Virus record (IMG/VR): IMGVR_UViG_3300044638_004915
Coordinates: 1 to 31,969 of that record
DNA from: a virus
Length of the DNA: 31,969 nt
Direction: 5' to 3' (one strand)
A model generated the notes under the pieces. That model was not told the origin of the DNA. It was given only the letters and a program-made list of their open reading frames with translations, and ran no database searches. The position numbers were made by a program, and so were the translations under genes. Below are positions 3,332 through 27,487 of this stretch, in pieces (position 1 is the stretch's first letter; each line of letters opens with the position of its first letter).

Positions 3332-3346
3332 AATTAATATTATCTA

Positions 3347-5027: not shown

Positions 5028-5879
5028 CTATTGCTCCAATGGTAATAATGTCAAAGTGATAGTAAATGTACCAGCAGATGAATTGGTATTTGTTATTGCT
5101 AACAAAATATTTGTCGATGCTGGTGATTCATTACTAAATCCAATTACACCGGGTGCTATAGGCACGGTGGTATTAGCAGTTGTAACTACTTCCGCAATAA
5201 TACCGGTCGTTGTTGGATCTACAGAAATAAGTCTAGCAGCATCTGCAGTTCGGGATGCGGCATCTGTATAGATCCTTACCCATGCGCCACCAATACTCGA
5301 TGCGGTTTGAACACTGTACAATACATATCCGTTATACCCAGTTATTGTTAGATTTGCAGTTGCGCCAGCCGCAATTAATGTTGTTGTTGCACTAGCCTGT
5401 GTTCTAGCTGGTTTATTCGTTAATGAAGTATAGTTGCCACTAAATCCAGAAATAACTCCATTATTAATTGTAATACTTGTACCATCTATCTTAACTCCAC
5501 CTAATACCGATGCAGTAGCAGTTGGTAATGTATATGCAGCAGCACTGCTAATTATTCCATTATTAATTGTAATACTTGTACCATCTATCTTAACTCCACC
5601 TAATGCCGTTGTAGTCGCAGTTGGTAATGTATATGCAGCAGTACTACTAATTACTCCATTATTAATTGTAATACTTGTACCATCAACTTTAACTCCACCT
5701 AATGCCGTTGTAGTCGCAGTTGGTAATGTATATGATGGTATCGAATTAACTGCCGTGTATAAATCAGTAAAGTTGCTATTAATTTTTATAGCACCTTGTC
5801 GCAATGTATCACCAGTTCCATCATTTGCGATGGAACCAGTTGATAATATGAGTTGTTGCGTTGTCGTCCATGTTGTCAT
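5028..5879 (-). CDS. Short tail fibre-like protein with three 33-residue repeats
   Basis: A 283-residue protein. The N-terminus has the fibre-type motif GDTLRQGAIKINSNFTDLY (residues 23-41). Residues 50-148 are three 33-residue repeats beginning YTLPTAT and containing LGGVKxDGTSITINNG, a pattern typical of trimeric fibre shafts. The C-terminal 100 residues (GGAWVRIYTDAASRTADAARL, APGVIGFSNE, TFTITLTLLPLEQ) match a beta domain I know from many aquatic phage fibre proteins, probably the tip or a receptor-binding head. The ATG at 5877-5879 has a strong AAGGAA ribosome binding site. It lies 14 bases after the giant structural gene and one base before the protease. No enzymatic motif is visible. 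Confidence 0.75.
   Translation of the reverse strand: MTTWTTTQQLILSTGSIANDGTGDTLRQGAIKINSNFTDLYTAVNSIPSYTLPTATTTALGGVKVDGTSITINNGVISSTAAYTLPTATTTALGGVKIDGTSITINNGIISSAAAYTLPTATASVLGGVKIDGTSITINNGVISGFSGNYTSLTNKPARTQASATTTLIAAGATANLTITGYNGYVLYSVQTASSIGGAWVRIYTDAASRTADAARLISVDPTTTGIIAEVVTTANTTVPIAPGVIGFSNESPASTNILLAITNTNSSAGTFTITLTLLPLEQ
5436..5732 (-). repeat. Three tandem 99-bp coding repeats
   Basis: Copies at 5634-5732, 5535-5633 and 5436-5534 are nearly identical in DNA. For example, gttggtaatgtata recurs at 5521, 5620 and 5719, exactly 99 bases apart. They encode the shaft repeats of the short fibre. The repeats are contiguous, in frame and without spacers, so this is not a CRISPR array. 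Confidence 0.95.
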
Positions 5880-5893: not shown

Positions 5894-8800
5894 TTATAAA
5901 GTCCATTGTAACCCAGTTTTCTTGACTATAGTAATCTTCGTACCAGCTGGTACAGGTCTTGTTAATCGTATTTTTTTCGAAGTTCCATCAACTGAAAAAT
6001 CAGCATCAAACTGTACATCACCAGCTGGACTATATGGCGAAATATTCAAATTAAATACTATATACGGATGTTTTTTTAATCTTATATGTGCTGAAAAAAA
6101 CTCCCAGTTATTATAATCAGTTAAGAAATCTTCACTAGTATGAGAAGAGATACATCTATATGTATATATTCCATAACTTATTATATCACCGATATTATAG
6201 GTTGTTGTTATTGACCAGCTTGTAACTTCATAATGCACAAATACATCAATTTCATCACATTGACCATAATTATTCGGTATCACACTTGTAAATTCTTCAG
6301 GTAAATCCCACTCAGTAACTGCTTTTGATGGGATAAATGTCACATCAACCATATTAGAAAATGAGCTCATGGTAACATGTTCAGTAACATTATTATCACG
6401 ATATGAAATAATAGTACTTGGTCCAATATTTTGAACTTCTGTCCCAGATTCATATAGGTTTACTGCACCAGTTCCCATTGTTCCACGTCTTATTTGACTC
6501 AACGTGTTGTCATGAATTTTAAAGTACTCAATTCGTTCACCATTAATATCAATCACACCTGGTTTATTTTTCTTTATGTCAGGTATATCAAAATTATCTG
6601 TGTTCTTTAAATATATCACATCATCAGTTATGTAAAAATCCTGAGTCAATTCAGTTCGTTGATCATAATTCAAATTTTTATATTGGAATCTGTTCAACAT
6701 ATCTTTAAACTGCATATATGAAACCCGTGTAGTTTTATTACTATTATAGGTAATAATATCAAATACATCTTCTGTCGTAGGTTCAAATAATAATGTTAAA
6801 CTAATTTTATCAGGGTTTATTATAAAATCAACACCTGGTGTTAATAATTTTCCAGTTTTTACAACCCATATATAATCCTCATTTATAATTTCATTTGGAA
6901 GCTGGATAATACCACCCAACACTTCTAAATTATAATAATATTGTGAAGAATCTTGTACAGGTATAATATCTGGTGTAGCATCAATCTCTATCCTTGATAC
7001 ACCCAAAATTGTATTATTATAAGAACTAAATATAACCACAATATTGTTAGGTCCAATTACAGTATCAAATATGATCCCAGCGGGTGATCCACCAAATGCT
7101 GGAATATAAGTGTATTCAGAACTCAATAATATGCGTTGATCTATTCTAACAATCATATTGATTTCATTCGGTGATGCATCACCAACGATACTAGTTAATA
7201 TATATGCTTGTGTTTTAGGTCTATTATCACCAACAACTTTCTGTGATGTTGTTATAGTAAATGTTCTTTCAGCATTACTAGCAAGAATATAATGAACAAT
7301 CGCATTAGGTGGTATAGGATTAGAAAATATAAACTTCAAAACACCATCAACATTTTCAATATGATTTGATAAGAATTCACCATGAAAATATGCATATGCA
7401 GTTACACTAATAGAAGAATTCCACATTGTTTTGGTTGCAAATATTGTTTGACCACCATTCCCAACAAAAAATCCAGTATCTAATATATCAGATCCATTTA
7501 CACCAATACTGAAAATAGTTACAATGAAGCCTTCATCAGGTGCCGTTGTAAATGTAATAGTATTGTCATCATAGTTAACAATATAATCAACACCAATTTC
7601 TTGGTAAACAATCTCTGAAAGTAATTCATCATCTTCATTTCTAAAAAATGATTCAACCGTAACGATTAATGATTGGTTACTATTCATTCGTTGGCCAATA
7701 TCAAATATAGTATCTTCACCATTTGCAACATGCTTTTCAACTTTAATATTGCCTGAAACAACTGATTGACTATCATATACCTTAATAGAGACTGCATCTA
7801 CCAATTGACCAGGAACTATTTCCTCTGGAGCATAACTAGTATTTTCTGTTACAAGCCCATCCCCATCAACATTGACATCACTTGGTGAAATTCCTGTTGC
7901 TGAGGTATATGCCAAATTCCCACCATCATAAGAGGTGTCATAATCTTCCTCATATGGTTTAATTGAGCCATCACTTGTAATTTTTCTTAAAATGATTACA
8001 TCGCCTTCATTAATACTAACATTTATAGGTATATTAATACTAACATACCCATTAATACCAACTGTGACCTCATCGTTAGATTCCGATTCAACCAACGCTG
8101 TTTTCATTACGGCATTAATATTTGTTTGAAAATGTTCTGGTCCAGTAGCGCCAGGCATAATTCCATAGTATTGATCATCAATTCTAGTACCATTTAAATA
8201 TACAGTAATTAACGTACCAATTTCTGGGACATATGGCAAATCTATTGAATGTTCATTAGCACCAACATTTACTGCATGATCATCATAAGTTGTATCATAA
8301 TTATCCCATCTATCAGATGCATATGGTGTGCTATCCCATCCTTTATTGTATTCAAAATTCATACCATCAACGATTACACCACCATAGTCAACACCAGTCA
8401 TTAATTGTGATAAATCTTTACCCAAATCGGTAGAAGATGGATTATAAAAATGTTGAATTCTGTCAGCCGCATTTAATGTTGAAACATCTTTACTATATGT
8501 AATTTCTATAATAGACCCAATTACAGGTATTGTATCAAATGTTATTGAGCCAGTTACTTTACTGAAGTAAATATTATATTCAGGATTTATTGGTTCATGT
8601 ACTATAGCTAATGTGTATACACCTCTAGAAATTTCAACACCGTTTATAGTTACTAATGCTTTTCCAATCTTAATATCTGGTGCCCATGATAATCCATAAG
8701 TACTGTTTACACCATCCGCTTCAAAACTTTCAGTTTCTTCTAATTTATTAATACTATAATCATTAGTAATTCTATCGAATTTTAAACCAATTGTATTAGT

Positions 8801-11800
8801 TCTGATATTACTGTCACCTATGATTGCTACAGCTCGTGCAGCATCACCATTACTGGCATTACTAATTCTCACCACAGGTGCAGCTAAATAACCAGACCCA
8901 CTAGTAACAAGAACTATACTATCTACTTTTCCATTATTAATAGTGGTGTATGCAGTAGCACCAGATCCAGAATCACTTATAATTTCAACCGTTGGCGCAG
9001 TTAAATACCCGTATCCAGAATATGTCAACGTTAATTTGGTAACTTTAAATCCAACATGATCCAACCAGCTTTTCCATGGATATTCATTAATCGCAGTATC
9101 ATATGCAACAATTTCACCATTTTCAACAGTTGCATCAATCACTGTAGTTCCGCCATAATTATATAATGATGGTAAATCAAAATCCGTAGTTCCAAATTTA
9201 CCGATATCATTATTATTGTAAGAACTTACATATTCTCTAATTTTCGTTCTATATGGTTTCACTTCAGCAACATATGATTCAAAATCTGCTAAATTATCAT
9301 TTTTATATGTAATAGGTTGATCCAACATACCAACATTATGAGTTGCTTTTACAAAACTTGTTTTAAAAATCCAATCTATATATGTTTGTTCACTAAATGC
9401 ATATCTTATACTATTGAAAAATAAATTTAGATATTCAACTTTTAAATCATTGATGAATATTGATTCCTTAATGGCTGTCAATATGTTACGCAATTCAGTT
9501 GTTACATTTATATCATAACCAGTGGTATCATATAAGGCACCATCATACGCAGTTTGATTATATAATGATGTTTTTAATTGAATAGTACCGTTTTCAATGC
9601 CAATTATTGTATATTCCTGTGTCCAATCAATAGTACCAACAGTTGAATTACGTTTTAATAATACCCATTCACCAACATTATTATACTTAACTTTAACAAT
9701 ATCATTTACTTTTGGTGAAATCGATGTTAAATCTGAAAAATTTAGAACTTCGTATTCAATTGCAGTAAATTCATTATAGCCTGGCTCATACCAATTAACT
9801 TTATCCCAATAATTAGGAGTATTATAAGATTGTGTTAATGATCTAACCCACCCAGGTACGGATGCATATGATCTAATCGTAGTCATTGTAACTGTTTGTA
9901 CATTATTCACAGTCCAAGTCGTACCATTTCCACTCACTATAAATGTACCTGGAATTACACCTGTTCCATATAAATATTGTCCGGTTTCTATGATACCAGT
10001 AATCGATCCGTCAATAGTATCAATAGTCAACGTAGTCCCATTAATATTAGCAATGCTTGCAACAAATGAATTTCTTTTTGGTTGATATGAATATATCGCC
10101 CATGTATCATTTGATTGGGTATCACTATTAATCAATATAGCAAAATCTCTAACACGTATAACAGTATCATCTGAATAACCTTCACCACTATTAATAATTG
10201 AACAACTTATAATTTGTCCTTTTGAATTAATAATTGGAACTATATTTGCATTAATACCGCTGCCTAATACAGTAATAACAGGGGCTGTAATATACCCTAA
10301 CCCAGAATTTATTATTTTAACATCAGTAATTTTACCATCATTTATTATAGGTAATAAGACAGGCTGTTTAACAGAACTAACGTTAATAAATTGTAATTCA
10401 GAATCTGTGTCAATTGCTTTATCGTATAATCTTGATGACTCCAATGGTGCCGAATCATATTTCTCCAATAATGATAAATCACGAGTTGATGAAGATATTT
10501 GATTTTTTATTAGAACTAAATTTGCTTGTTCAATATATTGTTTTAATGCTTCAAATCTATTTACAAACATAGATTGACGTGGGCGATTCTCGATACCATA
10601 TCGTAATTTCGGTGATACAGTATTATCAGGCACCAGGCGGCCAGCCGTGTCACTTCCACATAAGCTATCAAACCATTTCTGTTCAACATTGTAAGGTATT
10701 GTTGTTAATGGATCATTACTGATAAGTTTCCATTCAGAATGTATTTTTTGATCAATATCGCCAATTGTCCAATATTGTAATGATAAAACAACATCTTTAT
10801 TTTGTAATAAATATTTACAATTAGCTACATTAAATGAATTCATACCAGTTAACGATACAAATTTATATCCTTCACTTACTGGATTTGCAATCATGTTTGC
10901 AACACTTGCACTAGAAATATATCTTCCAGATACTGATGGAACTGTTACTTTATTTTTAACCCAATAGTAATATGTATATTTTAAACTTTTACTGATATTA
11001 TCAAAATAAGTTTTAACACTATATACACTATCAGAGTATAATGATTTCCCACTAATACCCATTGATAACCCACTATCAGTGTCTGATTGTGCATCCCACG
11101 CAGATGGTTTTAATGATGTTTCAACCCATTCATAAATATCAACAGATGCCAATGGTGCAAGTTTATACCAATTAGTTGATCTGTATACATCATCAACATC
11201 ATTACATTCAATAAATTTAGAAGTACTTAAATCCCACCATATTTTACCAACTTGTTTTGTCGTCCATGCAGCAGTAGTATCTACATTAACAGAAGATGTC
11301 CCAACAGAATAAATTGCTGGATCATAAAATGTCTTGTAACTAATCTCTTCGTCAGCTGGCCCTGCAATTTTACCTTGTAATGGATCTAATACATCCAAAC
11401 TAGCTAAAAGCATATTGGTTTTTTTATTATATACAAATGCTTTTTTTATTTTACTAATATTTGGGACAGTAACCTCGGTATTCAACTTGGACCAGCTGTA
11501 CGCATTAGCTTGTTTATTGTATTCAACAACCAATCCAATATTTTGCAATTGATTATCATATGAAGGCGTTCCAATTAACACAGTTCCATCACCAACTGAA
11601 AACCCAACATTTGCAGTATTTTCAATATTAGTAATTAATGATATGGTTTCACTAAAAATCCATTTAGTCGCATATCTATCATAGATATCAATTCTACCAG
11701 AAGGTGAATTTGAATATTTGCTATGTACAACTATTGTATTATCACCCATGAACGATATGTTTGTACCAAATTTTTCGTTAGATTCTGGGACAGTATTTAA

Positions 11801-14800
11801 TATTTGTTGGTATTCTGAATACATTGTACCAAATTTATAAACAGTAACAGTCCCCTCATTTGGATATTGCACTGTTTCCAGTGGATCAGATATTGCAATA
11901 TATGTTCCGGTATCATTAACTGAAATACCAGTACCAAACGCCGATGTACTACCAGTCAATGTTTGTAAAAATTCAAAATCTTTATAAATATGCACTTTGC
12001 CAACTGCAGAAATCAATAGTGTAGAGTTATCTGTACTGACATTTACATTTGTTCCATATAAATCACCGGAAACCTGGCCATTATAATTAGTTGTTAAATC
12101 ATACTGCCAGTAATTTACAACAAAATTAATTGTACCAGATGGTTGAACATCGGGTGCAGCACTTAGTGTTACAGTTTTTGTTACAGTATTAACACTTATT
12201 ACTTGTTGATTACTATAGAATCCGGTCCCAACCACATACATACCAAACCCAATTTTAGCAACCGAAGATAATTTTATAATATTACCATAGCTACCAGCAG
12301 GATTATATTCAGCACTTGTAACTATACTTTGATTGTATGAAACTTTATAAACTTTCCCAGTATCATTATCTGAACCTGGTGCCCCAATATATAATGCATA
12401 AGAGCTCGCATCATTGTCAAATGATAAACTATATCCAAATTTTTCATTTGATGCAGGGAATGGGCTAACAAATGTAGATACTTCAAAGTAATTGTCTGTA
12501 TCATCCTTTTCATAAATCGTAACAACACCTTGGTTTGTATAAATTGAATCAAGCCCTTTAATTGTAGTATGATTTAAATCATAGATTTCTCGTGTTATTG
12601 CATTGTTTAATCCAGTAGTATTATCAAATGAAACAGCAGCCGAATCAAATGTATTAACACTATTATCAAATCGCATATCTGTATAGTAAATTACAGATGC
12701 ATTACTTGCATTTGGGGAACCAACCGCAAGCCATTTCCCATCACCTGACATTGCAATAACTTCACCAAATATATTATTTGGATTGATTCCATTATTAGAA
12801 ATATATGGGGTTGTTAATACTTGCTTTTGTCTTCTAATAGAAGAATCGTTAGAGCTGTATGTATATATTTCTCCAAGTGCAGTTGATATGGCTACTAATT
12901 TTCCAGAATCCCAAGACGCAATAGATCTACCATAATTCATTTCAGATGTAATATATGGTTGGACTATCATTCTCCCAGTATACACTGGATTATATCGCCA
13001 TACTGCCCAGTTACCGGTTCCATCATTGTCTGTCCATAGTTTTTCACCAGATAAAATGTTATTTTGCAAAATAGTATTTGCATTATCAATATTAGTAATA
13101 CGTTGATTAGTAAATTTAAAAATTTCAATAGATGATTGATGGGTAAACGGATTTTCAATTGTTAACCCTGTTTTTATAATTACTATAGTATGTGTTGTTG
13201 TTGAATTTATTTTATAAAAACCATCAAATCCAATAACACCAGTAATACCAATATAATCACCTGTACCTAATGTGACTATGGAAGATGTTGTAATTGTTAA
13301 AACACCATCATTAGCTGTATATGTAACATTAGTTATAACTAAATTTGATGGGGTATATCTATACACATTCCAAGAGCGTTGTTCAAATGTACACCACACA
13401 TAACTACCTTCAGAAAAGTTAGATATGTCTTGATCGATAATCTGATCTATAGATTTCAAAGTAACTAATACATCAGACTCTCTAACATATCCAGCCGATC
13501 TTAAAAATGGTTTTTTAGAAGTAACAACCGGAAATGGGTTTGAATTATATCCAATTGGTTTTAAATACAAATCCGTTGGAAGTTGTTGTATAATATAGTC
13601 TGATAACGATAAATCAATATTTGGTACTAATTTATATCCTTGAGGATTATTAACGTGGGTTTGTTCATCTAATAAGATTTCCACCTCATCAAATGCACTA
13701 CTAGCACCATATTGACCTACACGCAATGCCCATTCTTCGTAAAATGTCAGACTTTCTGCATTTTCTGTATTAAATACACCAAATAAATGGTCAAATACAT
13801 TTTGAGTACCTTTATCACGAATCATGCCTTGATAGAACTTAAATTCACTAACATTATCTTGAATAATATTGTCTAAATATTGACGTTTCTGATACCCAAT
13901 CAAATGTTGTGCCATTGTTTGCTGTGAATTATCAAAACTATCAACTTCTAATGTATAAAATTCATTAAATTGTGTAGCGATTGTTGTCAAGTTTGGTAAA
14001 ATTTGCTGAACTGGTTTCTTTGATAATTTAACCCAGTTGCTTGGCATAAAATTTTCGGATCCAGCCATGCATATATCTGCACTATAATAATACGATTGAT
14101 ACCTTACCACATCCCCAATAACATAATCTTTCCATGGTGTCCAATTTGATACACTAGCATCATCAAATATAAAGCCAGGAATATCAAATCCACCATACCA
14201 GTCACTACTCACATATGCAGATACTTTAATTCTATCTTGTTTATATCCACTAGTTGGATCATAAATTAAATCATTAAACATTGTTGTATTGTTGATAATA
14301 ACAACATGTTCTTTTTGTATCAAGTAAAAGCTAGCATTGTAAATACCATCATCATTGGTTGGTGCATAACTAACAAAATTTTCATCTCTGTTTGATTTTA
14401 AATATAATGGTGATATTGGTTGCCCGTCTACTCTAAACATTTCATAATCATTGTATGGATTAGATATATCGTCAATAATATTGATAGTTGTAGAAAATGT
14501 TATTTTATTCGCAGATGGACTTAAGGATATAACTGAACTCCCAACCGTACTTAATCCATCCATTTTTAAATAATATTCGGTTTGAAATGTAGAATTAGCT
14601 GGAATATTTCTAAGAGCCTTATAGTAATCACCAAAATATCTAACAATAGTACCATATTGAACAGCGGTGTTAGGTACCCATTCTGACCATTTATCCTGTC
14701 CGGTTGACCAATTTTGTGTTGTCCAAAATAAAAATTCCTTAGCACTGGTTTCCCAATTACATACTTGTGCTAAATTAGAATTAAAATCATCAAATATGAA

Positions 14801-17800
14801 ACCTTGATCTTTTAAGTACTCACCATAGCCAAGTAAAAAGTCAACTACTTCTTGAATAGTACTAAACACTGAATTGTATGGCAATGTGATTGGTGTTTGT
14901 CTATTCCAGGCTTTTCTAAAATATACAGTTCTTCCACCAACAATTGGTAATGATGCTAATTGTTGATATTTTGAATTATCGAATACAGAATCACGGTTAA
15001 TAAACACAGTGGCTCTATAAAACACGTTACCTAATTTAACTATTTGCCCGTGTGGGTATGATTCACCACTTTTCCATGAAACATATGATTCTGAAATTCC
15101 ACCAATTGTTATAATTGACCCTTTTTGTGACCAATTATAATAGTTGAAATATGGCTGTGTTTTACTGTATCCGTTTACAGAATATCCATTCGCGAGTTTT
15201 GATACAATAACTCCACTATATGTTATTTTACTCGTAGGAGTAGACGTATTTAATATAATTTTATAATCATCTGACGGTACAAATACCCCACCAGCAGTTA
15301 ATGGTGATTTTGAATCTAATATTAATTTAAATTGTTGTTTGCTTGTGAATGCACCAACTCTATAACATAAATTATAATTCAAATTAAAAATATCATATAG
15401 ATACTGATTATATTTTGTTAAATCTTCACTTACTAAATAATTAATAATATAGTTTATTATCCCAGATGTCTGGACACGTGAATTACTAGAATAGATACTT
15501 GGTAATTTTAAATCAGATGCTGTTATATGCACCCCAGATTCTGTGTAAATTAGCTGCCCATTGAGATTTCTTTTTATTCTTGATCTATCAAATAATACAC
15601 CAATAACACTTGATGGTTTCATTAATATAGTTGTTAAAAGTAAACTAAATGGGAAGTGTGAACTACGTCTCCATGCATTTTCTACCGGTGCAATATCACC
15701 AAAAACAAAATCACCTTGTATATTTTGTGATAAAAATCCTGAAACAATTCCAGAATCAAATGGACTTACTAAATTTCCACCATCATCTACAGGAATATGT
15801 GATAATAAAAATGGTTTTAAGTAATCTACCAATACAATTGGATCTTTACCAGGTTCTTTTAATAGGCCATTACTGATATCTTCCCACATTATGTGATTAT
15901 CACTGGTATATGGAGCAGGTCCATACACAGTATCCCACCACGATGGCTTATCAGTAATTCCCATGATTTCCCATGGACATATATTTGGTCTATCAGTATC
16001 CAAAATCCATTTGTATACTCCTCTCCAATATCCAGGTGCAGTTGACCCGTTTGGTGATGATAACCCACTATAATTAAATGTGAATGGATTATTTTGATCA
16101 AATGTAACTGCTGAAAAATTAACATCAATTAATGACAACCATTTATAAAAACTTGATGATAATATTTTGTTAAACTCAGTCATACTATAATCATTTTTAA
16201 CATTATACCTAGATATAATGTCATTAATATTGAAAATATTAGGATCGTATGATATTTTAGTATTATTGTATATTCTTTTTTCTAACTCTATTAGTAAATC
16301 ATCACGATAATCACCATATGCAAGTGTTAAACTACCATCGTGTCCCTGTATCATTGATACTGGTGTTATTAAAGTTGTATCAACATATATATTAGGATCA
16401 TATAATGGAAAAATCCCTAATTTAGAAGGGGTTTCTGGTACAAAACATCCATCAGTATTCTCATATTCATAAATTGTTATTTCATCACCAGGTGCAATAG
16501 TCGCAGAAATATCAACGAACCCTTGATCATCAAACATATAATCATGGCCATACAATAGTTGAACACCATTTAAATATATTCCAACTGCTCTGTTAGATAA
16601 TGCATCTAAAGTAAATGGTACATTCAATGGATATTGTGTTTGAATATAATCTAAAACTATATAAGTTGTTTTAACACTAGCACCAAATGGGATCATATCA
16701 CTAAAATAATACGGAGACGTTTTAGGAACATTTCTAGTTAACTCTTGCATGATCAAATCTACATGATTTTTTACGTCAGTATCAATACCAAGAGTTTCTG
16801 CTACTTTAATAAAATTTCGTTTAAACTTATTATAGTCTTCACGAGCTTGTTCAATTGCTCTAACAATATTAACCTGATCATTTGTAATATGATACAATGA
16901 TAGACAAGATGGTCCGCTATGACGGACAAACTTTGTTCCATATTGTGATATATTACCCAAATCTCTTAAATTACTAGATCCAGGAAAAATTCCATTGAAT
17001 CCTGGTAAATTGTCAACCATTGATGTTACATGGTCTAGTACTTCACCAAGTGAAAAATTAGAAATAGTTTCATTTAATGGATTATTTTGCAAATTATTTG
17101 GTATTTCATAATATCCATTTGAATTTATTGGTTGTGAAGCAAATGTTCTTATTGTCAATACGTCAGTTAATGATATTGGGGTTGTCAATACTATTCGTTT
17201 ATATTTTGGAGAATTTTCAACCACCCATTGTGTGACTAAGCCAATATCTTTTTGTAATCTAATACCATTAATGTAAATCTTTACTTCTAAATCATCTAAT
17301 AAAGATATATCATCAAAAATATCAATATCAAAATTATTTACTTTACCAGAGTTTTTATATATTCTAATACCAGCTTGGGTAATTAGCGATGTATTTGTGA
17401 CCCACCCATTGGAATAGACAGGAGAACCAACATAATCAGATGTAATTAAGTACCCAGTTCCTACATTTTTATCAACAAATGACAAAGTTGAACTATCTCT
17501 ATAACTAAACATATCAGAAATAAAGTTAAAGTTGAATACAATATCACCAATATTGTTTATACTTTTATAAGTTATTGGGAAATTTAAAATAGGGTCATCA
17601 ATTCCAGTTGTATTGACTTTATACGTAAATACCTGTGATCCTTTAAAATTAGAACCACTATACACAGAAGTGTCACTGAAACTAATACCATTTTCGTCAA
17701 CTACATCAAACACCGGCTGTTGATTCTGCTTTATTTTTTGCTGCCCAAGGACCCAATTAGATCCATTAAACCAAAATTGCTTATTAATCATAGACCCATT

Positions 17801-19243
17801 TGTAACACGAACTACGTCATTGATCGATGGTACTCGTATTTTATGCAAATGTATTAAGGAATCGATTATTTCAACTTTATAAATTGCATTGGCAACACTT
17901 GAATCCAAATCTGCTGTGAAAATGATATATTGACCATCAGATACTGCTATTTTATCTACAGTATACCCGGTTGATCCTTCAATATCAGAAAAAACATCAT
18001 TTGTAAAATCATCAACTAAATCAACATCTATTATGCCGGTAGTTCCAAAATTAAAAAGTTTTAAATTAGCAGAAAACTCAATAATTGGTCTATTAGCACG
18101 AGCACTTTGATTTAATGTGACTACTATTTTATTTAATTTTGCACTTGTAATTAATACATCTTTATGAACCCATCTATTTGATCTACTCCACGCATTTTTA
18201 TCAGTACTATCACGATTTATTGTAATATAATCAGGAGTTGGCGCTATAACATCCAATAAAGAGCTGTCTACTAGTTTAATTGCATTACCAACACCCTCAA
18301 CATAAAATGTACCAGAAGCATATTGGGTTGGTACCACTTTACCACTAAATGAAACCAACATTCCATTGCTTAATGGTGTACCATTTGTTAATGTATATGT
18401 CTTTTTGCCTAAAATATCTGATTCAATATCAATTTCAGTGTTATCATCGATTGAAGATATAATAAAAATACCACCGGTATCTAAAGAGGTTTCACTTTGA
18501 TAAAATAATTGATTAGGTGCATTAAGTGGAACAGTAAATGTAATGGTCCCGTTTTCAACTGCATGTCCAGTAACTCCTTCTGTATATCGATACTGACCAC
18601 CAACTGATCTTTCAGTAACAATACTGAATGGATTCCCAACTGAATTTATTTCAAATACATAGGTTTGGCCTCTATATAAGCGAAGTTGTGGATTAGTAGT
18701 AACACCATTTGGCGTGAATACATATTCAGTTGTATTACCATAAGTTGTTGTTTTTACAGAAAACGTACTTATAGAGTTACTTTGTTGTCCATGAATATTA
18801 ATTACAGATGGAATTTCCCAATAATAGTTTTGATAATTTACTAACTTGTCCCAATCAATATTAGGATTCCAGCTATACATTTCTTCTTTATTCAATCTGG
18901 CATGATTTGATACATCACCACCAAAAACCTTAATTTTATTGATATAATCTTGATAATCTTTAAAATAAATGTTATTACCTTCTTCATCATTTATTGTGAT
19001 AGAAGGTTCTAATTGATAATTCTGTCTATTACTATCCGGTGCTTGAATAAAAACATCTGCACCGGTTGTAGCTTTTGCATTTTGACGGCCAATATATCCA
19101 TTCAATTTTGAAACAGTACCACGTTGAGTCAATTGCTCAACAGTTGCTTGCAAAAATTTTGAATTTGCATCTGTTCTAAAATATCTTGGTAAAAAAGTTG
19201 CAGATATATTAGTAGATGCGTTTGGATTAACTCTATCGGTCAT
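5894..19243 (-). CDS. Giant modular baseplate/tail structural protein, 4449 residues
   Basis: One uninterrupted 13.35-kb reading frame. It overlaps the gp6-like stop by one base (TAATG) with GGGAG as ribosome binding site. It occupies the place of T4 genes 7 and 8, to which I see no clear similarity. Visible modules: an N-terminal conserved segment (LPRYFRTDANSKFLQATVEQ, IGRQNAK, SNRQNYQLEP); a cupredoxin-like fold at about 188-262 without metal ligands; W-rich carbohydrate-binding-like modules at about 1387, 1517, 1700-1740 and 4341-4383; a conserved centre near 1790-1870 (FYEEWALRVGQYG); FG-GAP-like propeller repeats at about 2102-2575; GxGY beta repeats at about 2960-3025 and 3402-3459; fibre-like beta repeats at about 3500-4200; and GERIEYFKI...IRRGTMGTG near 4234. 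No catalytic motif or signal peptide was found. Giant proteins with this N-terminus occur in aquatic myoviruses as I recall; function there is undefined. A structural role is strongly implied by context; host-glycan contact is inference. Confidence 0.8.
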   Translation of the reverse strand: MTDRVNPNASTNISATFLPRYFRTDANSKFLQATVEQLTQRGTVSKLNGYIGRQNAKATTGADVFIQAPDSNRQNYQLEPSITINDEEGNNIYFKDYQDYINKIKVFGGDVSNHARLNKEEMYSWNPNIDWDKLVNYQNYYWEIPSVINIHGQQSNSISTFSVKTTTYGNTTEYVFTPNGVTTNPQLRLYRGQTYVFEINSVGNPFSIVTERSVGGQYRYTEGVTGHAVENGTITFTVPLNAPNQLFYQSETSLDTGGIFIISSIDDNTEIDIESDILGKKTYTLTNGTPLSNGMLVSFSGKVVPTQYASGTFYVEGVGNAIKLVDSSLLDVIAPTPDYITINRDSTDKNAWSRSNRWVHKDVLITSAKLNKIVVTLNQSARANRPIIEFSANLKLFNFGTTGIIDVDLVDDFTNDVFSDIEGSTGYTVDKIAVSDGQYIIFTADLDSSVANAIYKVEIIDSLIHLHKIRVPSINDVVRVTNGSMINKQFWFNGSNWVLGQQKIKQNQQPVFDVVDENGISFSDTSVYSGSNFKGSQVFTYKVNTTGIDDPILNFPITYKSINNIGDIVFNFNFISDMFSYRDSSTLSFVDKNVGTGYLITSDYVGSPVYSNGWVTNTSLITQAGIRIYKNSGKVNNFDIDIFDDISLLDDLEVKIYINGIRLQKDIGLVTQWVVENSPKYKRIVLTTPISLTDVLTIRTFASQPINSNGYYEIPNNLQNNPLNETISNFSLGEVLDHVTSMVDNLPGFNGIFPGSSNLRDLGNISQYGTKFVRHSGPSCLSLYHITNDQVNIVRAIEQAREDYNKFKRNFIKVAETLGIDTDVKNHVDLIMQELTRNVPKTSPYYFSDMIPFGASVKTTYIVLDYIQTQYPLNVPFTLDALSNRAVGIYLNGVQLLYGHDYMFDDQGFVDISATIAPGDEITIYEYENTDGCFVPETPSKLGIFPLYDPNIYVDTTLITPVSMIQGHDGSLTLAYGDYRDDLLIELEKRIYNNTKISYDPNIFNINDIISRYNVKNDYSMTEFNKILSSSFYKWLSLIDVNFSAVTFDQNNPFTFNYSGLSSPNGSTAPGYWRGVYKWILDTDRPNICPWEIMGITDKPSWWDTVYGPAPYTSDNHIMWEDISNGLLKEPGKDPIVLVDYLKPFLLSHIPVDDGGNLVSPFDSGIVSGFLSQNIQGDFVFGDIAPVENAWRRSSHFPFSLLLTTILMKPSSVIGVLFDRSRIKRNLNGQLIYTESGVHITASDLKLPSIYSSNSRVQTSGIINYIINYLVSEDLTKYNQYLYDIFNLNYNLCYRVGAFTSKQQFKLILDSKSPLTAGGVFVPSDDYKIILNTSTPTSKITYSGVIVSKLANGYSVNGYSKTQPYFNYYNWSQKGSIITIGGISESYVSWKSGESYPHGQIVKLGNVFYRATVFINRDSVFDNSKYQQLASLPIVGGRTVYFRKAWNRQTPITLPYNSVFSTIQEVVDFLLGYGEYLKDQGFIFDDFNSNLAQVCNWETSAKEFLFWTTQNWSTGQDKWSEWVPNTAVQYGTIVRYFGDYYKALRNIPANSTFQTEYYLKMDGLSTVGSSVISLSPSANKITFSTTINIIDDISNPYNDYEMFRVDGQPISPLYLKSNRDENFVSYAPTNDDGIYNASFYLIQKEHVVIINNTTMFNDLIYDPTSGYKQDRIKVSAYVSSDWYGGFDIPGFIFDDASVSNWTPWKDYVIGDVVRYQSYYYSADICMAGSENFMPSNWVKLSKKPVQQILPNLTTIATQFNEFYTLEVDSFDNSQQTMAQHLIGYQKRQYLDNIIQDNVSEFKFYQGMIRDKGTQNVFDHLFGVFNTENAESLTFYEEWALRVGQYGASSAFDEVEILLDEQTHVNNPQGYKLVPNIDLSLSDYIIQQLPTDLYLKPIGYNSNPFPVVTSKKPFLRSAGYVRESDVLVTLKSIDQIIDQDISNFSEGSYVWCTFEQRSWNVYRYTPSNLVITNVTYTANDGVLTITTSSIVTLGTGDYIGITGVIGFDGFYKINSTTTHTIVIIKTGLTIENPFTHQSSIEIFKFTNQRITNIDNANTILQNNILSGEKLWTDNDGTGNWAVWRYNPVYTGRMIVQPYITSEMNYGRSIASWDSGKLVAISTALGEIYTYSSNDSSIRRQKQVLTTPYISNNGINPNNIFGEVIAMSGDGKWLAVGSPNASNASVIYYTDMRFDNSVNTFDSAAVSFDNTTGLNNAITREIYDLNHTTIKGLDSIYTNQGVVTIYEKDDTDNYFEVSTFVSPFPASNEKFGYSLSFDNDASSYALYIGAPGSDNDTGKVYKVSYNQSIVTSAEYNPAGSYGNIIKLSSVAKIGFGMYVVGTGFYSNQQVISVNTVTKTVTLSAAPDVQPSGTINFVVNYWQYDLTTNYNGQVSGDLYGTNVNVSTDNSTLLISAVGKVHIYKDFEFLQTLTGSTSAFGTGISVNDTGTYIAISDPLETVQYPNEGTVTVYKFGTMYSEYQQILNTVPESNEKFGTNISFMGDNTIVVHSKYSNSPSGRIDIYDRYATKWIFSETISLITNIENTANVGFSVGDGTVLIGTPSYDNQLQNIGLVVEYNKQANAYSWSKLNTEVTVPNISKIKKAFVYNKKTNMLLASLDVLDPLQGKIAGPADEEISYKTFYDPAIYSVGTSSVNVDTTAAWTTKQVGKIWWDLSTSKFIECNDVDDVYRSTNWYKLAPLASVDIYEWVETSLKPSAWDAQSDTDSGLSMGISGKSLYSDSVYSVKTYFDNISKSLKYTYYYWVKNKVTVPSVSGRYISSASVANMIANPVSEGYKFVSLTGMNSFNVANCKYLLQNKDVVLSLQYWTIGDIDQKIHSEWKLISNDPLTTIPYNVEQKWFDSLCGSDTAGRLVPDNTVSPKLRYGIENRPRQSMFVNRFEALKQYIEQANLVLIKNQISSSTRDLSLLEKYDSAPLESSRLYDKAIDTDSELQFINVSSVKQPVLLPIINDGKITDVKIINSGLGYITAPVITVLGSGINANIVPIINSKGQIISCSIINSGEGYSDDTVIRVRDFAILINSDTQSNDTWAIYSYQPKRNSFVASIANINGTTLTIDTIDGSITGIIETGQYLYGTGVIPGTFIVSGNGTTWTVNNVQTVTMTTIRSYASVPGWVRSLTQSYNTPNYWDKVNWYEPGYNEFTAIEYEVLNFSDLTSISPKVNDIVKVKYNNVGEWVLLKRNSTVGTIDWTQEYTIIGIENGTIQLKTSLYNQTAYDGALYDTTGYDINVTTELRNILTAIKESIFINDLKVEYLNLFFNSIRYAFSEQTYIDWIFKTSFVKATHNVGMLDQPITYKNDNLADFESYVAEVKPYRTKIREYVSSYNNNDIGKFGTTDFDLPSLYNYGGTTVIDATVENGEIVAYDTAINEYPWKSWLDHVGFKVTKLTLTYSGYGYLTAPTVEIISDSGSGATAYTTINNGKVDSIVLVTSGSGYLAAPVVRISNASNGDAARAVAIIGDSNIRTNTIGLKFDRITNDYSINKLEETESFEADGVNSTYGLSWAPDIKIGKALVTINGVEISRGVYTLAIVHEPINPEYNIYFSKVTGSITFDTIPVIGSIIEITYSKDVSTLNAADRIQHFYNPSSTDLGKDLSQLMTGVDYGGVIVDGMNFEYNKGWDSTPYASDRWDNYDTTYDDHAVNVGANEHSIDLPYVPEIGTLITVYLNGTRIDDQYYGIMPGATGPEHFQTNINAVMKTALVESESNDEVTVGINGYVSINIPINVSINEGDVIILRKITSDGSIKPYEEDYDTSYDGGNLAYTSATGISPSDVNVDGDGLVTENTSYAPEEIVPGQLVDAVSIKVYDSQSVVSGNIKVEKHVANGEDTIFDIGQRMNSNQSLIVTVESFFRNEDDELLSEIVYQEIGVDYIVNYDDNTITFTTAPDEGFIVTIFSIGVNGSDILDTGFFVGNGGQTIFATKTMWNSSISVTAYAYFHGEFLSNHIENVDGVLKFIFSNPIPPNAIVHYILASNAERTFTITTSQKVVGDNRPKTQAYILTSIVGDASPNEINMIVRIDQRILLSSEYTYIPAFGGSPAGIIFDTVIGPNNIVVIFSSYNNTILGVSRIEIDATPDIIPVQDSSQYYYNLEVLGGIIQLPNEIINEDYIWVVKTGKLLTPGVDFIINPDKISLTLLFEPTTEDVFDIITYNSNKTTRVSYMQFKDMLNRFQYKNLNYDQRTELTQDFYITDDVIYLKNTDNFDIPDIKKNKPGVIDINGERIEYFKIHDNTLSQIRRGTMGTGAVNLYESGTEVQNIGPSTIISYRDNNVTEHVTMSSFSNMVDVTFIPSKAVTEWDLPEEFTSVIPNNYGQCDEIDVFVHYEVTSWSITTTYNIGDIISYGIYTYRCISSHTSEDFLTDYNNWEFFSAHIRLKKHPYIVFNLNISPYSPAGDVQFDADFSVDGTSKKIRLTRPVPAGTKITIVKKTGLQWTL

Positions 19244-22200
19244 TATAAACTCCCATATGGTGAACTAGTCACGGATTGTTGTGATGTGCTTGCTGTTGCA
19301 GATATACTGCTGCCTGATTTAATATTACTTGATGTAATACCTGATATAATTTCAATATCATCAACTGTTGCGCCATTTATAAATAATTGGTCTGTATTTG
19401 CAGTTATTTCAAATAAACTTCCAAAATTTAAATCCGATTTGTTCGGAACGATAACAAAACTAACAATGTCTGGTGCTAATTGCGAAATTACATATGTTGA
19501 CAACTCAGTAAAATAAAAAGTATCACCAAAATTCCAATTTTGTATAGAAAAAAATTGGTTAATTGCAGTTATTACTCGGGATTTTACATCATTATCAGTA
19601 ACTACTTGCTCAGGATTTTTGATAACTTTAAATGTTGCTTGTAGTTCTGGAATTGCTGTTCTACCAAACAATACCGTATATGATACTGGATGATATATAA
19701 TTTCATCAGAAACCGTTTTAATTAAATTTAAACTTGGTGATAATGTATTATACAGCTCGTCAGAACTTGGTGGTAATGGCTTAGTTGTTATTGTTCCGTT
19801 AATCCATTGTCTAAATGTAATATCATAATCATTTGTTAATACAAAAATATCAATAATATTACTTACACCTGGATCTATTCTAGAATCATAGTCAGCAGCA
19901 TGTGTATATTTAAACTTTATGTTGTCTCGCCCAATGTATACCTTATAATCAAGTGATGTAACCAATCCATATGGTAATACCAATTTTTTAACCACACCAG
20001 TATCTATAAAATAAAAGTATTGACCATTTGCATATGCAGATAATGAATCAACTGCTGATTGGCTAGCAAGAATAATAACTTTATTGTCAGAATTACTTAC
20101 ATATCTATAATCTTCTTGGCCATTTGTAATTAAGTATTTTTGTTGAAATATATACTTATTATTTGATGTAGAAGGCGGTACTAATTTTTGAAATAGATCT
20201 GGGTCGTATACTGTAGAATTATTGTTATCAACAAATGCTACAACAACTTTTTTTGTATCAATATAACCATCTTGACCTATATAACTTGAAGAAATTTTCC
20301 AAGTTATATCATTTGTATATGATGGTGATCCCAATTGTGTAAATGAGATTGGTCCATTAACAGCAGCAGAATTTACAATACTAAGTGTTATAGTAATATA
20401 TCCATTGGTTAATTGTTCAACCTTATTTACGATTGCACCCTGGCCAATTCCAACACCGGTTACTAACATCCCAACTGTTATGCCCAATGCATTGGTTACT
20501 GTTAAAGTTGGTTTACCAATTAACCCGATGGCATTAACGGTAGTCGCAGATGTATTCACATTGATACTTAATACAGTAATCAAATCATTAACAATCGTTG
20601 CCGTTTCACTGTTATAAATCTTATTATTTCCATCAAAATAAAATCGAATAGCCTTATCACTTTCAAATATGTATCGAGTTTCTCTACTGACAATTGTATA
20701 TGAGCCATTATTTGGTATGAAATTCAACAACCAACTTGCATCTCTATGATTATTAGTTAAATCTCCTTGAAATTCTAAACTAAAAGAGCTAATAGAATTC
20801 AAATTAGAATTATAAACAATCTGCCATGCGCTAGTGGTAACATCATAACGTAATCCAAATGGTTGGTTTGAAAATACAAGATCAATAATATTTGATATTG
20901 TGGTTTTTTCATCAATGGATGAAGACCATTTAGGAATAATCTTACTTATCACTGATAATGATGGCACAATTGTGTTGAATTGATATACTCCATTATTAAC
21001 ACTGATTACTTCTGCCCATAAATAATATGATGATCCAGGCAATACGGCAGTGCCTTCTACAAGACTGTTGTAATTATTTGTGTCAAAGTAGTACCCATAT
21101 GGAGCTATAAACTTAACCATTGCACCAACTTTGATATAAATTAAATCAAACGCAGCGTTTGATGAAACTGTTAATGTTCCATACGAAGTTGTAATATCAG
21201 TCTCGGTTTGCACAAACGTTGCAGAAAATCCATCAGTAACTGCATCTCGTATGAATTTTGAATAGTAAAAATTTCGCAAATTATCATAAGAAAGGATATC
21301 AAAAACAGTATTATAAATTACATATTCAACATCAGTTTTTGAAATATATGAAAAATTAATAGAATTTGAATAAACCTCATTATAAATGACACCATCATCA
21401 GAATATAATACAGTAGAACTATACTTGCTAGATGGATCCACTAAATCAAAATACCTACTAATACCACTTGAAGTTCTATTAATCGCTTTTACTTTTAATA
21501 CTTGCTGAGATGCACTCAATGGACTAATATTGTAGTCCTCACCAGTAATCATTCTATTTTGCGTATAGTATGTTTGTGGTGCATTTGTTTTAATACTTTC
21601 GTTAGATTCAGCTGGTGTTGAATTGGTCACAGAAGATGTCAATGACAACGAAATACTTAACGTATGATTTTGCCCGGTCGCAGAAATATATGGCAATTCA
21701 ATAGATACATTTCTTATATCTTGTGGATTAATTACATAAGATATTCCATTACTAACTCGGTAATATACCCTGAATGTACCTTGTGGAAGATTTCCAAAAG
21801 TACCATCAGCAAAAGTTAAACTGATTGCGTCACTTGCTCGCGTAACTACTCCATAGATATTTCTAATATTATTATTAACACTATTATAAACAATATTAGT
21901 ACCAGTTAAGCTAGGAACTTTTGTCCAAGCATTTGATTCTAATCCATTAACATCCAATCCATATAACCAAACATCATTATTGTTAATATTTTGAGATGTT
22001 ATATCAATCGATTCATTAGTACTTGGTTGAGTAATAGCAAACGTACCGGTATTCAGTGAACCTTGTGTAAAATTAAAGAAAAACCCAGAGTTTGCACTCC
22101 CGGCTCCTTGACCATCATCCCTGTATATACATGCAATACTATTACCAAGCTTTGGTGCTTCTTCATATATGAAATTTTGGCCTTTAAAAGCGGTACTGGT

Positions 22201-22842
22201 GATTTCAAAATTCATTGACATTCCAGATACTACTTTTGTAAACCCATATACAGGAACATCATTATTGGCTGCATTAAATCGATATTGACTGGTAGGAATA
22301 CCATATATTGTCGCACTATCCGTTGGATTTCCAAACTGTTGCGATACGGGTAATGCTGCATTTAATACTTTAATAAATTGATCATTCCAATTAGAATTAG
22401 ATGGATCATTCCATGATATAACTTGATTTGCTAAATTACGGCCATTACTATCTATTACTGTCTCGGTTGTTGATATTGTTGTAAATTTTAACAACCCTTG
22501 TGCAGCAATGTTACGTTTGGCATTATAACTTATTACTCTGGCTAACCGTAATATACTATCACGTCTTTCAGCCAATTCTAAGAAGTTTTCACGTGCATTT
22601 AAATCAACTCTGAATGCAATGTTTTGTCCTAAAAATGCAATAAGATCAATCAATGCCAAATATTCAGAACTCTCAATATAATCATTGAAGTCTTCTGGAT
22701 AATTTTGACGTATATAATTAACCATTGTGCGTCTAATATTCTCAAAATCATAGCTTTGAAAATCCGCATTGCGAAAAGATTGGTATACCTTTGTCCAATC
22801 CTCTGCTACTAAAAGTCTATTTTCTCTATCTGTTGCACTCAT
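19243..22842 (-). CDS. 6: Baseplate wedge protein, T4 gp6-like
   Basis: A 1199-residue protein. Its first 115 residues are strongly gp6-like: FENIRRTMVNYIRQNYPEDF, EYLALIDLIAFLGQNIAFR, then RENFLELAERRDSILRLARV and ISYNAKR. In T4, gp6 dimers form the iron-like ring of the wedge that ties it to the hub. T4 gp6 is about 660 residues, so this version is nearly twice as long. The extra length includes beta-rich insertions, one of which (about 770-838, TLTVTNALGITVGMLVTG) is a module shared with the giant protein and a tail fibre. The C-terminus (NFGDTFYFTELSTYVISQLAPDIVSFVIVP) fits the baseplate J/gp6 fold. The ATG has AGGA upstream and a late-promoter-like box beyond it. Assignment is confident for the N-terminal part. 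Confidence 0.88.
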   Translation of the reverse strand: MSATDRENRLLVAEDWTKVYQSFRNADFQSYDFENIRRTMVNYIRQNYPEDFNDYIESSEYLALIDLIAFLGQNIAFRVDLNARENFLELAERRDSILRLARVISYNAKRNIAAQGLLKFTTISTTETVIDSNGRNLANQVISWNDPSNSNWNDQFIKVLNAALPVSQQFGNPTDSATIYGIPTSQYRFNAANNDVPVYGFTKVVSGMSMNFEITSTAFKGQNFIYEEAPKLGNSIACIYRDDGQGAGSANSGFFFNFTQGSLNTGTFAITQPSTNESIDITSQNINNNDVWLYGLDVNGLESNAWTKVPSLTGTNIVYNSVNNNIRNIYGVVTRASDAISLTFADGTFGNLPQGTFRVYYRVSNGISYVINPQDIRNVSIELPYISATGQNHTLSISLSLTSSVTNSTPAESNESIKTNAPQTYYTQNRMITGEDYNISPLSASQQVLKVKAINRTSSGISRYFDLVDPSSKYSSTVLYSDDGVIYNEVYSNSINFSYISKTDVEYVIYNTVFDILSYDNLRNFYYSKFIRDAVTDGFSATFVQTETDITTSYGTLTVSSNAAFDLIYIKVGAMVKFIAPYGYYFDTNNYNSLVEGTAVLPGSSYYLWAEVISVNNGVYQFNTIVPSLSVISKIIPKWSSSIDEKTTISNIIDLVFSNQPFGLRYDVTTSAWQIVYNSNLNSISSFSLEFQGDLTNNHRDASWLLNFIPNNGSYTIVSRETRYIFESDKAIRFYFDGNNKIYNSETATIVNDLITVLSINVNTSATTVNAIGLIGKPTLTVTNALGITVGMLVTGVGIGQGAIVNKVEQLTNGYITITLSIVNSAAVNGPISFTQLGSPSYTNDITWKISSSYIGQDGYIDTKKVVVAFVDNNNSTVYDPDLFQKLVPPSTSNNKYIFQQKYLITNGQEDYRYVSNSDNKVIILASQSAVDSLSAYANGQYFYFIDTGVVKKLVLPYGLVTSLDYKVYIGRDNIKFKYTHAADYDSRIDPGVSNIIDIFVLTNDYDITFRQWINGTITTKPLPPSSDELYNTLSPSLNLIKTVSDEIIYHPVSYTVLFGRTAIPELQATFKVIKNPEQVVTDNDVKSRVITAINQFFSIQNWNFGDTFYFTELSTYVISQLAPDIVSFVIVPNKSDLNFGSLFEITANTDQLFINGATVDDIEIISGITSSNIKSGSSISATASTSQQSVTSSPYGSL

Positions 22843-22889: not shown

Positions 22890-23318
22890 TTATTGCAATA
22901 ATAACCCATTTGTTTGATCAAATTGTAGTTGCAATTTTTGTGATATATTGTATGGTAAGTATGTTAATATACACTCAATCTGAATACCAGATTCATATTG
23001 TGTAACAATAACATCTTTCGCAGTTATTCGTGGATCATAGTTAATAATTTCATTAACATTTTGTATAATCAATCCTCTAACCTGATCTGTTAACGGTTCA
23101 AACAGTAAATCCCAAATTATTGTTCCAAATGTAGGATTCATTAACAATTCACCTTGTCTAATGTTGAAATGGTTTAATAAATCTTGTTTTATTAAATTAA
23201 AATCATATAACTTATAGTTCTCAGTATCAGGGCTAACAGTACTAAATCCTCTATACATCTGCGAACTAATTGGCTGGTTTTTTGAAGGAACCGTAACTTT
23301 TTGATATATTGAACTCAT
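22890..23318 (-). CDS. 25: Baseplate wedge protein, T4 gp25-like
   Basis: A 142-residue protein, close to the 132 residues of T4 gp25. The diagnostic core is LYDFNLIKQDLLNHFNIRQG, followed by MNPTFGTIIWDLLFEPLTD; the FEP signature is typical of the gp25/TssE family. In the T4 baseplate, gp25 joins the wedge to the sheath initiation site together with gp6 and gp53. The ATG lies 5 bases beyond the gp5-like stop, with AGGAT as ribosome binding site. It is the last gene of the first late unit, since a promoter-like box follows. No anomaly seen. Confidence 0.92.
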   Translation of the reverse strand: MSSIYQKVTVPSKNQPISSQMYRGFSTVSPDTENYKLYDFNLIKQDLLNHFNIRQGELLMNPTFGTIIWDLLFEPLTDQVRGLIIQNVNEIINYDPRITAKDVIVTQYESGIQIECILTYLPYNISQKLQLQFDQTNGLLLQ

Positions 23319-23323: not shown

Positions 23324-24865
23324 TTATCCTGTAATTTTATTAAATGTATCAGTTGTTGTACTATAATTTTTCCATGCAGCAGCGGGTTCTTTCATAGATT
23401 CAGTTGGATGTGTTAACTGATTGTCAACATTTCTGTCAGTCTTATCTGACGAATATTTTAATGGATCTAAATTTTCATGCTGTGGGTATGGTTCATGTGT
23501 TGGAACTCTACGCATTATAGATTCAAATGTCGATCCATCGGCTGATGGTAAAATATGTGTCAATAATGGTGATGCAATCTCGGCAATTGCGGCGATTGGC
23601 CCATTCATATGGACTTTTGCAGCAGTTACCAGCTGGTTTCCACCAGAATTAATCTCAGTTGTAGTTCCAGCAGTAAATTTATTACTCCCAGTTGTATTAA
23701 CATCCATTTTACCAAGCGTAGTAATTTTTCCATTTTGTCCAATAACAATATCTGTATTTTTTGCAGACTCAGCATGAATATTATTACCTGCCTTTACATT
23801 AACATTTCTTCCTGCTTCTAAATTTATATCTCTACCGGCATGAAAATTAAAATCCTTTGAGGTGTGTATACTAATGCTATCTTCTGCAAATATATCTATT
23901 TTTCCGTTACTGGTTAGTTCTATCCAAGTAGATCCGCTTGCATTACCAATGTAAATCAAATCTTCACTATTATGTAATAAAATTTGATGACCAGTCCGAG
24001 TTCGGATTCTAATCAATTCATTATGAGGTATATCAACATTTCCACCGGTTTCCCCCTGTTCTATCGCAGCATATGATGGACCACCTGTTCCGGCTGGTGT
24101 TTTTCTTAAAAATTTATCATCCCCATCATCCATTACAAAAGTAGACCCACCTATATGGCTAACTGGTGCGTTCGTGATTCTGGAATCAGATTTACCAACT
24201 GCTCCAGTTTTTGCAGTTGGCTTTTTATCAAATGGGCCTGGTGTGCTGATACCAAAAACCATACTAGGTGTTTCACGTCTGGCGCTGCTTGTTGTTATCC
24301 CTCTGGTATCATCCAAAAGTAACCCCTGAGATGCTAACGCATCAACTAATGGGTGTTGTGGTTTTTTAAATTGAGTTGAATCACCGTCTCTATTATTTTC
24401 TAACTTGTTGTATTCTGCTACTGGTACACGGCCAGGTCTTCCAGCTGCATCAGCGGTTGCCGAATCTACTGAATTCTGGGTTGCTGCAATACCGGGAATC
24501 ATAAAATTCATACCTTCATCAGGTACACATCCAATCCAGTAACCTCTTCCAGGATCATCATTAACAAATATAACTACAACTAATGTCCCAACATCAGGTG
24601 GCACAAACCACATCCCGTAACTTTTTTGAGTATTGTTATAATCATTCTGATTTGTTACATAATCAAATCCAGTTACTCCATAAAATGGACTCATATATTT
24701 TACTTGTTGTACCTGTGCAGCAGATGTATCATTACCAGAACCTGGTCGTAATAACTGTACTTCCAATGATCCCATATATGATGTATCCAGATGGCTAATT
24801 ACTTTTGCTAAACATGGGCCTGTTGGCAATTCTGATTTTATACCGCTATTCTTATCTTCTGCCAT
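23324..24865 (-). CDS. 5: Baseplate hub/spike protein, T4 gp5-like without lysozyme domain
   Basis: A 513-residue protein. Residues 12-125 form the N-terminal OB-fold of the gp5/VgrG family (PCLAKVISHLDTSYMGSLEV, WFVPPDVGTLVVVIFVNDDPGRGYWIG). A low-complexity linker (about 130-235) follows where T4 gp5 has its lysozyme domain. Then come GGSTFVMDDG and IRIRTRTGHQILLHN, and a beta-helix of short repeats (about 320-420: GKIDIFAEDSISIH, GRDINLEAGRNVNVKAG) that would form the membrane-piercing needle. A C-terminal RRVPTHEPYPQHENLDPLK motif is present. The lack of a lysozyme domain means peptidoglycan cleavage must be done by another protein or is not needed. The start overlaps the upstream stop by one base (TAATG), with AGGGA as ribosome binding site. 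Confidence 0.88.
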   Translation of the reverse strand: MAEDKNSGIKSELPTGPCLAKVISHLDTSYMGSLEVQLLRPGSGNDTSAAQVQQVKYMSPFYGVTGFDYVTNQNDYNNTQKSYGMWFVPPDVGTLVVVIFVNDDPGRGYWIGCVPDEGMNFMIPGIAATQNSVDSATADAAGRPGRVPVAEYNKLENNRDGDSTQFKKPQHPLVDALASQGLLLDDTRGITTSSARRETPSMVFGISTPGPFDKKPTAKTGAVGKSDSRITNAPVSHIGGSTFVMDDGDDKFLRKTPAGTGGPSYAAIEQGETGGNVDIPHNELIRIRTRTGHQILLHNSEDLIYIGNASGSTWIELTSNGKIDIFAEDSISIHTSKDFNFHAGRDINLEAGRNVNVKAGNNIHAESAKNTDIVIGQNGKITTLGKMDVNTTGSNKFTAGTTTEINSGGNQLVTAAKVHMNGPIAAIAEIASPLLTHILPSADGSTFESIMRRVPTHEPYPQHENLDPLKYSSDKTDRNVDNQLTHPTESMKEPAAAWKNYSTTTDTFNKITG

Positions 24866-27184: not shown

Positions 27185-27487
27185 TTATAACCCCAATACT
27201 GATATTAAACTGCTGCTTTTTGGAAGATATATTTGTTTTCCTGGAATAAAATCAAATATTGGATCTTCCAATACATCTAAATTTCGTTGAATAAATACCC
27301 ACCATAATGTAGAATCACCGTAAACGTCAAACGCTAATAAGTCTGGTCTATAAGTGTATTGTGGTTCAATTGTATACAAATAATCATCTACCTCTGCACT
27401 AACTGGCCTAATTGCCAATATATCCAAATAATTTTGATTAACTGGGGTTGTGTACCATGGACTAGTACTAGAATATTTTGCTGCCAT
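27185..27487 (-). CDS. 53: Baseplate wedge protein, T4 gp53-like
   Basis: A 100-residue protein with the gp53/LysM-like core: TYRPDLLAFDVYGDSTLWWVF at about 45-65, then DPIFDFIPGKQIYLPK at 74-90. T4 gp53 is about twice as long, so only the core is kept. In T4, gp53 clamps neighbouring wedges around gp25 and gp6. The gene overlaps the stop of the gp48-like gene by one base and is followed one base later by the putative hub gene, consistent with coordinated synthesis of the inner baseplate. Confidence 0.8.
   Translation of the reverse strand: MAAKYSSTSPWYTTPVNQNYLDILAIRPVSAEVDDYLYTIEPQYTYRPDLLAFDVYGDSTLWWVFIQRNLDVLEDPIFDFIPGKQIYLPKSSSLISVLGL

Follow-up and report, generated by a model that had tools for sequence, protein, structure and literature searches.

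The window analysed here, 31,969 bases from a viral contig, encodes a 4449-residue protein that we propose to be the third, gp7/gpI-type chain in the baseplate wedge of a jumbo myophage, with very long arms and standing in gp7's place (probability roughly 0.7). The baseplate genes around it are arranged as follows.

5894..19243, minus strand: giant gene, PHROG 10938; 4449 aa, 497.6 kDa
19243..22842, minus strand: gp6, 1199 aa, the partner gene; its last base is the first base of the giant's ATG
22890..23318, minus strand: gp25 (PF04965)
23324..24865, minus strand: gp5-like spike with an OB domain and beta-helix repeats
27185..27487, minus strand: gp53 (PF11246)
5028..5879, minus strand: gp9/gp10-N-like fibre connector, the next downstream gene; T4_gp9_10_N just under cut-off

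Read along the minus strand, a 345-aa structural protein (phrog_12050), gp53, a 772-aa protein, the gp5-like spike, gp25 and gp6 precede the giant, and a gp9/gp10-N-like protein, an S8 subtilase, a phrog_11259 protein and a collar-domain fibre follow it. By comparison with the T4 gene order, the giant stands where T4 has gene 7. Its partner gp6 is clearly T4-type in sequence: the window gp6 family aligns with T4-type gp6 over the full length (E=2e-125 with HHalign, 2.7e-160 with hmmsearch), and since some jumbo-phage gp6 sequences entered the T4-type profile, the independent figure is the first-pass match to PHROG 219 (1.1e-17). Among contractile systems, those with gp6 have a (gp6)2-gp7 heterotrimer, which argues for a wedge chain beside it. 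Of 57 loci that could be tested, 55 have gp6 directly upstream of the giant (the median gap is -1 nt), and locus L031 is a 56th, missed since the predicted start of its giant overlaps gp6. The exception is SCTP-2 (L006 2609-11899), in which a different ORF of 3096 aa precedes the giant; this ORF was considered as a giant gp6 and rejected, and the SCTP-2 gp6 was not located. The giant thus shows the pairing with gp6/gpJ by which gp7/gpI/TssG wedge subunits are recognised, and this adjacency in nearly all loci is a main reason for placing it in the wedge.

Several neighbouring genes deserve mention in their own right. The spike at 23324-24865 consists of OB and beta-helix parts with no lysozyme match; in the relatives from RaK2, CBB and Vibrio 2.275, a lysozyme/GH24 annotation falls within the gp5-like spike or next to it. 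The 772-aa protein (24865-27183) occupies the hub position between gp53 and gp5 and has no counterpart among the families of Pfam, PHROG or NCBIfam. The S8 subtilase (3347-5026; PF00082, 1e-29; phrog_9158), which sits within the baseplate/fibre operon, is possibly a virion-associated protease. On the opposite strand, an HNH homing-endonuclease-like gene (29459-30097; phrog_655) is flanked by a late sigma factor (gp55-like) and an SbcD-like gene.

The initial annotation described a single intact 13.35-kb gene directly after gp6, and this description holds: the ORF at 5894..19243 starts with ATG, runs through 4449 codons with zero internal stops, overlaps gp6 by one base, and recurs as the same 4449-aa ORF on two separate near-identical IMG/VR contigs (L010 and L011). 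Its great length, taken alone, would speak for an assembly or annotation artefact that fused several genes; however, independent contigs share the identical ORF, full-length relatives (50, most of them ~31-54% identical) are collinear with it, and cultured phages have homologues of 3313-4555 aa. These findings refute that explanation, whose chance of being right we put at practically nil.

A profile comparison assigns the giant, over its full length, to PHROG 10938, "virion structural protein" (E=2.8e-301, 1004 bits, five stretches). With tblastn the giant matches 79 phage records, which, besides short cyanophage matches, are jumbo phages or their fragments: the PA5oct group, Atu_ph07, Phosso, SCTP-2, Vibrio 2.275, XaC1/XbC2, 121Q/PBECO4, Munch, RaK2/K64-1, CBB/GAP32 and Erwinia/Serratia relatives. 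In the phage records the homologues measure 3313 aa (XacN1), 3326 (RaK2), 3771 (Vibrio 2.275), 3807 (SCTP-2), 3857 (PA5oct), 4449 (Atu_ph07) and 4555 (Phosso), and, from the longest start, 3333 (121Q) and 3344 (CBB). Among cultured jumbo phages, Atu_ph07, Phosso, PA5oct, RaK2, 121Q and CBB have the giant beside gp6. The RaK2/CBB/121Q/PA5oct/Atu_ph07-type proteins share family and gene order with the window giant and are similar in size, that of Atu_ph07 having exactly the same length, whereas identity is ~25-31%, the enterobacterial versions are shorter (3326-3344 aa) and the window giant has an insertion of its own at residues 3052-3126. PHROG 10938 is filed under 'head and packaging' though the gene sits among baseplate genes, and this category looks wrong.

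Relatives are encoded at 478 places in IMG/VR. Of these, 50 are full-length metagenomic ORFs, the window's included; they span 4190-5337 aa (median ~4718), lie on contigs reaching 382 kb and exceed the window giant in length in 42 cases. The expectation that this would be one of the largest structural genes in a phage of its type is therefore not borne out: the giant falls below its family median, and giant gp7 proteins are already known in cyanophages (P-SSM2, 5195 aa), so that its size has a precedent. Virion proteomics, proposed as a check, is available for relatives: the PA5oct family member carries an ESI-MS/MS mark in its record, and CBB_236 yielded 21 peptides from CBB virions by mass spectrometry (PMC5259590). 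That relatives are virion proteins fits a place in the wedge. Taken together, the giant is an ordinary member of a widespread, conserved jumbo-phage virion-protein family rather than an exceptional gene, and the family, already known, is almost unannotated.

The closest link to known wedge proteins is a helical segment about 40% of the way along the protein.

13628..13996, minus strand: helical segment, proposed gp7/gpI-type wedge core, residues 1750-1872; KGT at 1811-1813, EEW ending at 1838

Across 29 diverse family members, its motif FYxGxIxxKGT-x(22)-EEW is nearly invariant: KG never varies, and EW is kept in at least 90%. The core aligns KGT on KGT both with cyanophage gp7 (P=0.001-0.005) and with P2-type gpI (P=0.005-0.007). 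Not one of 150 column shuffles or of 98 decoy windows, read in either direction, came up to its scores against gpI or against the MA01- and Melnitz-based gp7 profiles, and outscoring all 248 decoys against both families argues for a wedge chain. The region was picked after the motif had been noticed, and an unbiased scan of the whole protein gave the same place: the core is the giant's best gpI match and, outside one shared module, its best cyanophage-gp7 match. As a control, cyanophage gp7 against gpI scores no better (E 0.013) than the giant core does (E 0.0066). HHalign assigns the core low absolute probabilities (6-14%), which leaves the decoy comparison and gene position to carry the case for gp7 homology. 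The gpI model PF09684 found nothing in the tested jumbo-phage records, a negative that is uninformative because the model also misses T4 and P-SSM2. Judged from sequence, homology of the giant core to gp7/gpI is suggestive, not proven.

T4 gp7 itself has no match in the giant by BLAST, HMM or profile comparison and no significant one in the neighbouring ORFs, and Foldseek against the PDB retrieved no T4 gp7 from models of residues 930-2110 or 2590-3500; these negatives, along with the low HHalign probabilities, count against a wedge chain. The earlier statement that there is no clear gp7 similarity is accordingly right for T4 gp7 and probably too strong for cyanophage gp7, with which, as with gpI, the KGT core aligns. 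T4 gp7 (1032 aa) shares with the giant its gene position and a T4-type gp6 partner and carries a related motif, DFYxTKG, that matches cyanophage gp7, whereas the giant is more than four times longer and shows no direct sequence or fold match. In a profile comparison, the motif DFYxxKGxxxSxKxLFxxL connects T4 gp7 in turn with cyanophage gp7 (E=7e-9). Like the giant, the cyanophage proteins (5195 aa in P-SSM2, where "gp7" lies downstream of gp6, 3515 in S-RSM4 and 1942 in MA01) follow gp6, are huge through module insertion and have RGxxGT and GxGY modules, and their KGT core is a candidate counterpart of the giant's; unlike it, they carry the core at the N-terminus and are followed by a separate gp8. 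Phage Melnitz has a small gp7 counterpart of 896 aa. P2 gpI (PF09684) aligns its KGT-x(18)-EW with the giant's KGT-x(22)-EEW and adjoins gpJ/gp6 as the giant adjoins gp6, but at 176 aa it is without arms, and the PF09684 model does not match the giant. We found no paper giving the PHROG 10938 family a gp7 role in a literature search that left most subscription journals outside.

Structure prediction covered two segments of the protein. The AlphaFold2 models of residues 930-2110 and 2590-3500 have a mean pLDDT of 77 with many small confident domains, while the core helices (model residues 825-924), though among the most conserved residues, fall below 50 as a monomer, as expected if the segment folds on its partners; the low confidence fits such folding and does not prove it. 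The 2590-3500 model has no meaningful Foldseek match in the PDB. The 930-2110 model retrieves only CBM5/12, small beta domains and receptor-binding parts of phages Milano and 7-7-1, and, in BFVD, relatives of the same family plus small matches.

The remainder of the giant carries the following modules.

18794..19243, minus strand: conserved N-terminal block, residues 1-150 (Y..YYW.. linker end), from the conservation profile
18458..18766, minus strand: putative cupredoxin/YHYH-like beta domain, residues 160-262, from sequence pattern
14948..15079, minus strand: weak CBM5/12-like module, residues 1389-1432
14012..14149, minus strand: weak CBM5/12-like module, residues 1699-1744
11444..12976, minus strand: propeller-like segment with FG-GAP_2 repeat, residues 2090-2600
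10154..10348, minus strand: GxGY beta module, residues 2966-3030, also in the Melnitz gp7-position protein and tailspike Dpo31
9866..10090, minus strand: insertion, residues 3052-3126, in almost no other aligned relative
8834..9046, minus strand: second GxGY beta module, residues 3400-3470
6422..6709, minus strand: 'RGxxGT' module, residues 4179-4274, corresponding to cyanophage gp7 residues 51-153 (P=5e-9)
6086..6217, minus strand: CBM5/12 chitin-binding-type module, residues 4343-4386 (Pfam PF02839)

The picture of a mosaic of beta modules stands in part. CBM5/12 and FG-GAP modules are recognised by their sequence profiles above cut-off: PF02839 scores 37 bits at residues 4343-4370 (cut-off 26.2), and FG-GAP_2 scores 31.5 bits (cut-off 23) when residues 2090-2600 are scanned alone. 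The weaker CBM5/12-like stretches near residues 1390 and 1700 have PDB profile and Foldseek matches to chitin-binding domains, and the GxGY modules recur in Melnitz gp7 (E=8e-10) and Dpo31 (E=2e-4). The cupredoxin-like character of residues ~160-262 is a pattern-based suggestion: the segment has no significant Pfam or PDB match, and a metal-ligand-like C..H...M is present in relative L085 and lost in the window giant. The fibre-like repeats are putative, and a module-repeat model built for them proved circular and was set aside. In a separate observation, the insertion at 3052-3126 is similar to a stretch of the collar-domain fibre protein (residues 510-565, window 1006-1173; E=8e-5), a beta module that this phage thus has in two of its tail genes.

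What would the giant be, if not the third wedge chain? It may be a peripheral baseplate adhesin or fibre scaffold, gp10-like or with a new role, that merely sits beside gp6 while another, unrecognised protein supplies the third chain. Its bulk is indeed beta modules, CBM5/12 included, Foldseek brings up chitin-binding domains and the parts of the phage Milano baseplate that bind receptors, and direct T4 gp7 similarity is lacking. Against this, coupling to gp6 is near-universal, and the KGT core gives a signal with two gp7-type families. Moreover, a search of nine large sequences that carry a giant, namely six genomes of cultured jumbo phages and three IMG/VR contigs (331-382 kb), yielded no T4-type gp7 at another place. 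We regard the scaffold, the main rival reading, as rather unlikely.

If the giant united the functions of gp7 and gp8, this would explain why gp8, which follows gp7 in T4 and cyanophages, has no separate gene here, but we hold such a fusion to be very improbable, because HMM searches, HHalign and a rebuilt gp8 profile gave no gp8 signal in the giant or in neighbouring ORFs. The phrog_438 matches in relatives' giants, once considered as gp8, cover only a beta module at positions ~185-280, outside the parts that match T4 gp8. The gene at 5028-5879 was likewise rejected as gp8, its strong matches being false and due to a profile contaminated with gp9-like sequences. In the remainder of the nine genomes or contigs, no convincing T4-type gp8 turned up. 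The suggestion that the giant takes the place of gp8 as well as gp7 must thus be dropped, while the companion remark that it shows no clear gp8 similarity agrees with BLAST, HMM and Foldseek searches. That these nine genomes or contigs offer neither a T4-type gp7 nor a convincing T4-type gp8 speaks for the giant as the third wedge chain.

In contractile systems of known structure, the wedge consists of two gp6-type chains and one gp7-type chain; gp7 counterparts such as P2 gpI, TssG and XM1 gp17 differ greatly in size, gp7-type proteins being as short as 242 aa and as long as 1032 aa, and the gp7 counterpart of XM1 is where its tailspikes are attached (PMC6300606, PMC10457771). As a third wedge chain, the giant would pair through its helical core (residues 1750-1872) with two gp6 chains, as T4 gp7 and the gpI-type proteins of simpler phages do, and the N-terminal ~1750 and C-terminal ~2580 residues would reach out as peripheral arms built from beta modules, a few of them of a putatively glycan-binding type. 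On the T4 plan, six copies per baseplate would add ~3 MDa, surround the hub, hold fibres and perhaps touch the cell surface themselves. Of the earlier proposal of an extended wedge arm with adhesion domains, gp7's place by a T4-type gp6, the virion relatives and the adhesion-type modules are borne out, and the wedge role itself is what we infer from gene position and the match of the core. A further and more tentative idea, possible though doubtful, is that in this jumbo-phage lineage the contraction-trigger wedge subunit itself became the adhesin, its gp7-type core bearing two giant glycan-binding/propeller arms, so that surface contact could be sensed by the wedge without gp8 and perhaps without gp10/gp11 adaptors.

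The PHROG 10938 family is large, abundant in metagenomes and present in much-used jumbo phages, yet annotated merely as "virion structural protein". A gp7/gpI role, if assigned, would give these jumbo phages a recognisable wedge, would show how greatly module insertion can enlarge a gp7-type protein (176 aa in P2, over 5000 at the upper end), and would single out a baseplate region that may be in contact with the host surface.
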